Shown here: positions 20,684-21,233 of the stretch, piece after piece
Numbering within the stretch: position 1 is the first letter of the stretch
How the letters are laid out: each line of letters starts with the position of its first letter
Source: Allorhodopirellula solitaria
Lineage (GTDB): Bacteria; Planctomycetota; Planctomycetia; Pirellulales; Pirellulaceae
Reading direction: 5' to 3'
Length of the DNA stretch: 64,000 nt
NCBI RefSeq assembly: GCF_007859855.1
Contig: NZ_SJPK01000004.1
Coordinates: 375,646-439,645 of the forward strand
Notes under the pieces: generated by a model
What the model saw: the letters and a program-made list of their open reading frames with translations, nothing else
What the model was told of the DNA's origin: nothing
The model's database searches: none
Made by a program: the position numbers and the translations under genes

Positions 20684-21179
20684 TGGTATAATCTCGCAAG
20701 CCGTCCTTAGGTGCACGGCTTGGTTCTGGCTTTCTTTCGTGCTCGTGCTCAGCATCGCGGCGCTCGTGCTCGTGCTCGTAATCGTTCCCCAGCTCATAGT
20801 CTACCGACGGCTCCCTAACGCCGTCAAACTTCATCGCCATTCGAGTTAGCATCGAGACAATTCGTTTGAGCATCCGTTTCAGTTCTCGACTCGCCACGTC
20901 CTCCAAACCGTCCGTCGCAACCAGAACATCTTGAATCGCAGCACATTCAAACGCAGATCCGCGAGCAATGTCGAAAAATCGAGCACGATCTTTCAAGCTG
21001 CGCTTGCCGTTACCCTCGGCGATGTTCAGCGGAATCGATTGAGCAGCGCGAAGCCATTGATCACGAGCGTGGCGATGCAAACCGCTCAGCGATTTCGAAA
21101 CGTCGAATGCAGCAGCGACGTATCCGATTGACAAACGGTAGACGTCGAGTCGATCGTGGTCGAAGATTGGTTCGGTCAT
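20655..21179 (-). CDS. Four-helix-bundle protein (S23/IVP-like, Avd-like fold)
   Basis: 174 residues. Residues about 5-120 match the TIGR02436/S23 family: FDHDRLDVYRLSIGYVAAAF, HRHARDQWLRAAQSIPLNIAEGNGKRS and RARFFDIARGSAFECAAIQDVL. The family includes proteins encoded in 23S rRNA intervening sequences and Avd of diversity-generating retroelements; free-standing copies have no known job. The last about 50 residues are odd: YEHEHERRDAEHEHERK is simply the translation of GAGCAC-type repeat arms, and the frame then runs into host sequence until 20655. The true domain likely ends near SVDYELG. Start ATG 21179 is 13 bases inside the right repeat arm. Confidence 0.85.
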   Translation of the reverse strand: MTEPIFDHDRLDVYRLSIGYVAAAFDVSKSLSGLHRHARDQWLRAAQSIPLNIAEGNGKRSLKDRARFFDIARGSAFECAAIQDVLVATDGLEDVASRELKRMLKRIVSMLTRMAMKFDGVREPSVDYELGNDYEHEHERRDAEHEHERKPEPSRAPKDGLRDYTNGKSIVRPR

Positions 21180-21233
21180 GGTTGCGCCATTTCGATTACG
21201 AGCACGAGCACCGTTTCACTGAGCACGAGCACG
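20738..21233. mobile_element. IVS-like cassette with nested perfect inverted repeats
   Basis: Two sets of inverted repeats enclose the four-helix-bundle gene. The inner pair is a perfect 19-mer, GTGCTCGTGCTCGTAATCG at 20766-20784 and its complement at 21193-21211. The outer pair is a perfect 13-mer, CGTGCTCGTGCTC at 20738-20750 and its complement at 21221-21233. All arms are built from GAGCAC/GTGCTC hexamers. The inner span is 446 bases. The layout (terminal stem enclosing one S23-family gene) is that of rRNA intervening sequences, but no rRNA is present. No transposase is inside. Confidence 0.7.

Follow-up and report, generated by a model that had tools for sequence, protein, structure and literature searches.

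An S23 four-helix-bundle gene between mirrored hexamer arms: probably a gene-in-a-stem module carried by a mobile integron gene cassette

Judging by sequence comparison, the repeat-flanked S23 gene of the window (the whole 64,000-nucleotide stretch analysed) almost certainly belongs to an integron gene cassette. The explanation that we favour as a whole, with good confidence, is that an S23 'gene-in-a-stem' module is carried by this mobile cassette. The first-pass annotation had suggested a mobile form of the 23S rRNA intervening sequences (IVSs). An apparently mobile S23 unit is indeed present, but the arms are not its ends and it would move as an integron cassette bounded by attC sites. Coordinates are collected in Table 1.

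A repeat search of the window recovered the annotated 19-nt inverted pair around the S23 gene, perfect at 100% identity and with the same inner span of 446 bases. The outer pair was also found to be perfect, at a length of 14 nt instead of the 13 first given. Both pairs are contained in a single 46-nt pair that is 80% complementary (20737-20782 / 21189-21234). Chance does not account for this arrangement, because the exact inner pair recurs with the same 427-bp spacing at seven further sites of the genome, and because the long arms found in other genera and phyla far exceed shifted or mismatched controls. Folding of the transcript had been suggested as a check; in the RNA minimum-energy fold of the whole transcript, the arms are paired (z -5.0). 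An S23 ORF between complementary terminal sequences, as in rRNA IVSs, is seen at this locus; the RNA-family search found no rRNA, and so no insertion in a 23S rRNA helix. A group II intron was also considered and rejected: the Rfam match to group-II-D1D4-6 was weak (E 0.28), under the gathering score and antisense to the S23 gene.

The enclosed gene matches PF05635 (E 8.5e-20, 71.4 bits against a curated cut-off of 33.8) and TIGR02436 (67.1 bits, cut-off 24), which confirms the family first assigned to it, and its ATG stands where it was annotated, 13 bases inward of the right arm. The protein had been thought to end in the translated left arm. This arm does encode the tail DYEHEHERRDAEHEHER, but the reading frame then continues through the attC site to position 20655. 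Between subfamilies dN/dS is 0.04-0.12, from which the S23 protein is judged to be under strong purifying selection. The sole solved structure matched was XCC0516 of Xanthomonas campestris (PDB 2GSC, E 2.3e-9).

To define the borders of the repeated unit, 14 copies were aligned with their flanks in gene orientation. All share the start GTTCTGGCACAAAGTGG and the end ...CCGTCCTAGGTGACGGCAACCGTT, whereas the outer flanks differ save for a few neighbours in common. Homology spans 20646-21253 and passes the arms at either side; the unit has no inverted repeats of the IS type at its ends. The ORF list and the Pfam and NCBIfam searches gave the S23 gene as the only one in the 608-bp unit, with no transposase. 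An insertion sequence with the arms as termini was ruled out by these copy borders. Instead, the unit is bounded on both sides by a G^TT crossover, with neighbours that vary from copy to copy. The final 90 bases are organised like an attC site: an R'' box that is the reverse complement of the bases opening the unit, two L boxes that complement each other and have single extrahelical bases, and a terminal GTT, the G of which closes the cassette. When folded, the bottom strand takes the attC shape, with two single-base bulges.

Table 1. Features of the S23 cassette and its neighbours in the window
Feature	Position	Strand	Evidence
5' arm (gene sense), GTGCTC hexamers; outer 21221-21234, inner 21193-21211	21189..21234	-	
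3' arm (gene sense), GAGCAC hexamers, coding; inner 20766-20784, outer 20737-20750	20737..20784	-	
S23 / four helix bundle gene, 174 aa	20655..21179	-	PF05635, TIGR02436
Predicted S23 integron gene cassette, 608 bp, TTCTGGC... to ...CAACCG	20646..21253	-	14-copy alignment; junction G^TT
attC of S23 cassette; R'' CCAGAAC 20723-20729; core G 20646	20640..20729	-	R1 85.4 bits (site in training set)
Next cassette, small predicted membrane protein	20141..20645	-	attC sites at both borders
attC of membrane-protein cassette	20135..20227	-	R1 88.7 bits (site in training set)
Third cassette, Schlafen AlbA_2 protein, ORF 19224-20111	19136..20140	-	PF04326 E 5.7e-14
attC of AlbA_2 cassette, cluster end	19130..19219	-	R1 64.2 bits (outside training set)

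A covariance model of planctomycete attC sites (R1) was built from nine sites. Its three attC matches within the window all lie on the minus strand; two (20640-20729 and 20135-20227) belong to its training set and one (19130-19219) does not. The three sites delimit a cluster of three cassettes (19136-21253), the S23 cassette being the first, without an integrase of its own. The gene of the second cassette had zero Pfam or NCBIfam matches; that of the third codes for a protein with a Schlafen AlbA_2 domain. Just upstream of the S23 cassette, the segment 21254-21340 (GGTCGTATTGGCAAAATTCACGAATACGACCC...GAAGCTATT) also precedes the cassette copies of contigs 14 and 3:286k. It was not scored as attC and may be where a preceding cassette ends, a site resembling attI or a favoured place of insertion. 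Overall, R1 gave 74 matches, most of them outside the training set, with dozens elsewhere in the genome including the arrays of contig 12. Divergent attC sites were missed by this model (L144 and L151, recognised by eye).

An integron integrase gene is located on contig 12, outside the window and beside attC arrays (C12:180843-181790; TIGR02249, 413 bits against a cut-off of 265). A second, partial match to the integrase C-terminus (G000:C12:149069-149194) falls within a frame of 441 aa next to the other attC array. The DNA search of the genome gave nine full copies of the S23 cassette at 97-100%, as well as diverged (72-75%) and broken ones. In a census, nearly every copy with the gene and arms had an attC directly 3', some copies standing in tandem arrays. 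R1 had no match at the diverged copy of contig 2, where an attC-like end was recognised by eye, or at relics on contigs 10 and 13. It also found no attC at two further S23 genes of the genome (C21 and C1:194k). No other cassette was seen as often as the S23 cassette; the others of one contig 12 array occur in at most about four places. The cassette assignment is supported by the sharp ends common to 14 copies whose flanks differ, by the attC directly 3' of nearly all copies and of neither of the two non-cassette S23 genes, by the TIGR02249 integrase, by an attC fold that has two extrahelical bases, and by the high copy number.

Arms standing alone would have spoken against gene and arms being one unit, and in part they do occur, since arms without an intact S23 gene were found on contigs 12, 7, 9 and 16; these are apparently deleted cassettes. 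Cassettes or relics that keep both arms and have mostly or wholly lost S23 (L095 13337-13529, L110, L114 9052-9996, L115, L116 9373-9576) resemble non-autonomous derivatives. Among relatives, gene and arms are almost always carried together, as expected of one unit. A comparison of the window locus by way of hom and recJ gave no empty site, and found no recJ within 1.5 kb of hom in relatives. No relatives were found in viral contigs, and the plasmid search gave nothing beyond one S23 gene of 33% identity.

We then considered the same subfamily in a scan of representative genomes, which gave 77 relatives. In Pirellulaceae, most copies are followed directly by an attC site, and the cultured relative Neorhodopirellula pilleata Pla100 carries several copies. 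Nineteen relatives form a well-supported clade, with members from Verrucomicrobiota, Kiritimatiellota, Lentisphaerota, Desulfobacteria (Desulfobacterota), Gammaproteobacteria and others. Its members have mirrored arms made of other hexamers (TCGGGA, TCGAAA, TCGCTA and so on; general unit TCGNNN), which match within a locus and poorly between loci. Throughout the subfamily the arm period is 6 wherever it can be measured. A simple generic attC score gave 0 matches in the 18 non-Pirellulaceae copies, a score that also missed some true sites. At some of these modules the next gene begins within about 10-30 bases, which leaves no room for an attC. One empty-site comparison points to an insertion between folP and glmM: in Candidatus Thiosymbion these genes stand 563 bp apart, with the module filling the interval, whereas 13 relatives from its family have -16 to 273 bases at this place and no S23 gene there. 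The verrucomicrobial MAG G006 has about nine full or partial S23 copies, most of them in a common envelope that differs from the attC cassette and has its own TIRs outside the S23 arms. This multi-copy element of about 750 bp (L228-L235; TIRs TATACACGACGACATAA / TTATGTCGTCGTGTATA) carries S23 plus the hexamer arms. Taken with the attC cassettes, it shows that the module has at least two carriers.

Canonical S23 genes, fetched first as a negative control, were found to have arms themselves. They were replaced as controls by shifted windows of the same locus and by pairs from different loci, with an arm threshold score of at least 12. Locus-specific inverted arms were present at 76 of 88 canonical loci against 1-3% of shifted controls: 28/28 in Planctomycetota and 19/28 in Verrucomicrobiota (shifted windows 1.4-2.9%), 11/12 among S23 genes of named cyanobacterial plasmids (1%) and 18/20 in Gammaproteobacteria (3%). 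The arms are short tandem repeats; where a period could be measured, it was 7 in 61 cases out of 75. In 68 of 73 loci G outnumbers C in the 5' arm (p 3e-15, with loci treated as independent though they are not), the G-rich strand of the arm being oriented into the S23 gene. We regard inverted arms as very likely to be a general feature of S23 genes.

The canonical units occupy varied places. One gammaproteobacterial locus, L360, is a genuine 23S IVS: the 23S rRNA model spans its S23 gene, the arm begins 1162 bases into the 23S (helix-45 position), and the 45-nt arms consist of CAGAAGA-like heptamers. The likeness first noted to the plan of rRNA IVSs, a terminal stem with one S23 gene in about 0.4-0.5 kb, is thus borne out by a true IVS with similar repeat arms. 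In 20 canonical loci of Planctomycetota and Verrucomicrobiota, no known RNA family was found. Some other units occupy the nrdB-nrdA interval or lie inside CRISPR operons. Those in CRISPR operons of cyanobacterial plasmids (L297, L301, L306) include the cas6-cas4 and cas10-cmr3 intervals; at L306, the same heptamer stands on both sides in direct rather than inverted orientation. In Gammaproteobacteria, S23 units were also observed beside or between tRNA genes (L355, L357, L358, L361).

What keeps the two arms alike was addressed through their mismatches. G-U and A-C mismatches are about equally frequent (99 vs 126), also when tested by group. Because G-U is not preferred over A-C, pairing in the sense RNA alone probably does not maintain the symmetry; covariation in the sense RNA was set aside as its cause, and a purely RNA-level role for the stem, in the sense of the host-borne RNA stem first suggested as an alternative, gains no support from these counts. 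Within the subfamily, the change between GTGCTC and GTACTC is concordant in both arms in 37 of 38 cases (Fisher 6e-10). This switch is one change on the tree, and it was not counted as covariation since a single event gives no independent cases. Overall, the data point to a cause at the DNA level, which could be a function as termini, a copying process or a double-stranded binding site.

The arms could also be without function, slippage making the units and quasi-palindrome template switching keeping the two sides alike. Such a mutational by-product would account for short tandem units of locus-specific sequence, for the even mismatches and for the uncorrelated unit numbers of the two arms (r 0.06). 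We consider it unlikely, because the arms are strictly linked to one gene family across phyla, sit at fixed positions, one shortly before the start and the other at the stop or close to it, keep a fixed G-rich orientation and are rare in shifted windows. It is less likely still that the arms serve cassette recombination, by flanking attC in the excised circle, extending its hairpin and helping the single-stranded site to fold. The predicted DNA fold of the circle junction does go from -20.6 kcal/mol for attC alone to -65.3 kcal/mol with the arms, and the S23 cassette is unusually abundant; however, arms also surround S23 genes without attC in other phyla, showing that they predate integron capture or exist without it. 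Least probable is a free-standing mobile IVS that ends at the inverted arms and sits in a cassette by accident: the Coxiella IVS has a similar plan (28-bp terminal stem, S23 ORF, 428-444 nt; PMC4990558), the module lies between ordinary genes outside integrons and a 23S IVS has the same type of arm, but at the window locus this reading is largely refuted by copy boundaries that pass both arms and end at attC borders, and in G006 the copies likewise have a different envelope with TIRs outside the arms.

In the integron cassette model, the integrase would spread the S23 cassette by attC recombination, also into clusters of the CALIN type, that is attC clusters without an integrase, away from its own gene. 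In Pirellulaceae, an integron would have captured the S23 module as a cassette and then multiplied it. The arms would be the module's own termini, or putative binding sites at the DNA level, probably for an S23 oligomer. Once transcribed, they may fold into a stem from which the module RNA is cut out of the host transcript, as documented for rRNA IVSs (PMC4990558). Such an excisable stem would allow the module to be tolerated in cassette arrays, operons and tRNA or rRNA operons. The functional part of this model, with arms as termini or binding sites and an excisable stem, is put forward tentatively, at or a little below an even chance. From sequence data we infer the current mobility of the cassette, the binding of the arms by S23 and the RNA excision.

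More broadly, S23 genes and their mirrored tandem-repeat arms (7-nt units generally, 6-nt here) may form one unrecognised family of mobile modules in at least four phyla. Integron cassettes and rRNA IVSs would each be a niche of this family, S23 would be the protein that acts together with the arms, and a DNA-level process would keep the arms symmetrical. We hold this proposal to be evenly balanced. The origin and role of 23S rRNA IVSs and of the S23 protein have been questions since about 1990, and what heptameric repeats do in cyanobacteria and elsewhere has likewise long been asked. The link between S23 and arms holds across phyla and carriers (integron cassette, TIR element, operon spacers, tRNA neighbourhoods and 23S rRNA), which means that a single protein and a single set of DNA or RNA probes could put both questions to the test. 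It also indicates that an integron can capture and amplify a gene-in-a-stem module. If the single family is real, its sites or relics would include many of the orphan heptamer repeats found in cyanobacteria and other bacteria.

Within the openly licensed literature, our search turned up neither S23 genes with arms of tandem repeats outside rRNA nor S23 integron cassettes. Avd of diversity-generating retroelements belongs to the same general four-helix-bundle family and has a nucleic-acid partner; neither a reverse transcriptase nor a variable repeat was seen with the S23 gene studied here. XCC0516, for which we know of no published function, has low sequence similarity to the S23 protein of the window. 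Cyanobacterial STRRs consist of short G-rich tandem units, sometimes in convergent inverted pairs. Heptameric tandem repeats are known in Nostoc and Xanthomonas, and as described in PMC4692102 they resemble canonical S23 arms in both respects. The repeats studied here differ in being the arms of S23 genes and, in the window's subfamily, in having a 6-nt unit; a search of that paper gave no match to S23, four helix or intervening.

The IVS of Coxiella burnetii (PMC4990558) is like the present element in its single S23 gene, complementary arms and size of about 0.4-0.5 kb. In contrast to it, the S23 cassette, known here from its sequence, lies outside rRNA, has arms of hexamer tandem repeats and is bounded by attC. 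With integron cassettes and CALINs it shares attC sites with R and L boxes and extrahelical bases, the G^TT junction, the head-to-tail arrangement of cassettes and an integron integrase in the genome. It differs from them in that one cassette has been amplified to nine near-identical copies, and in that long mirrored arms of hexamers enclose its gene.
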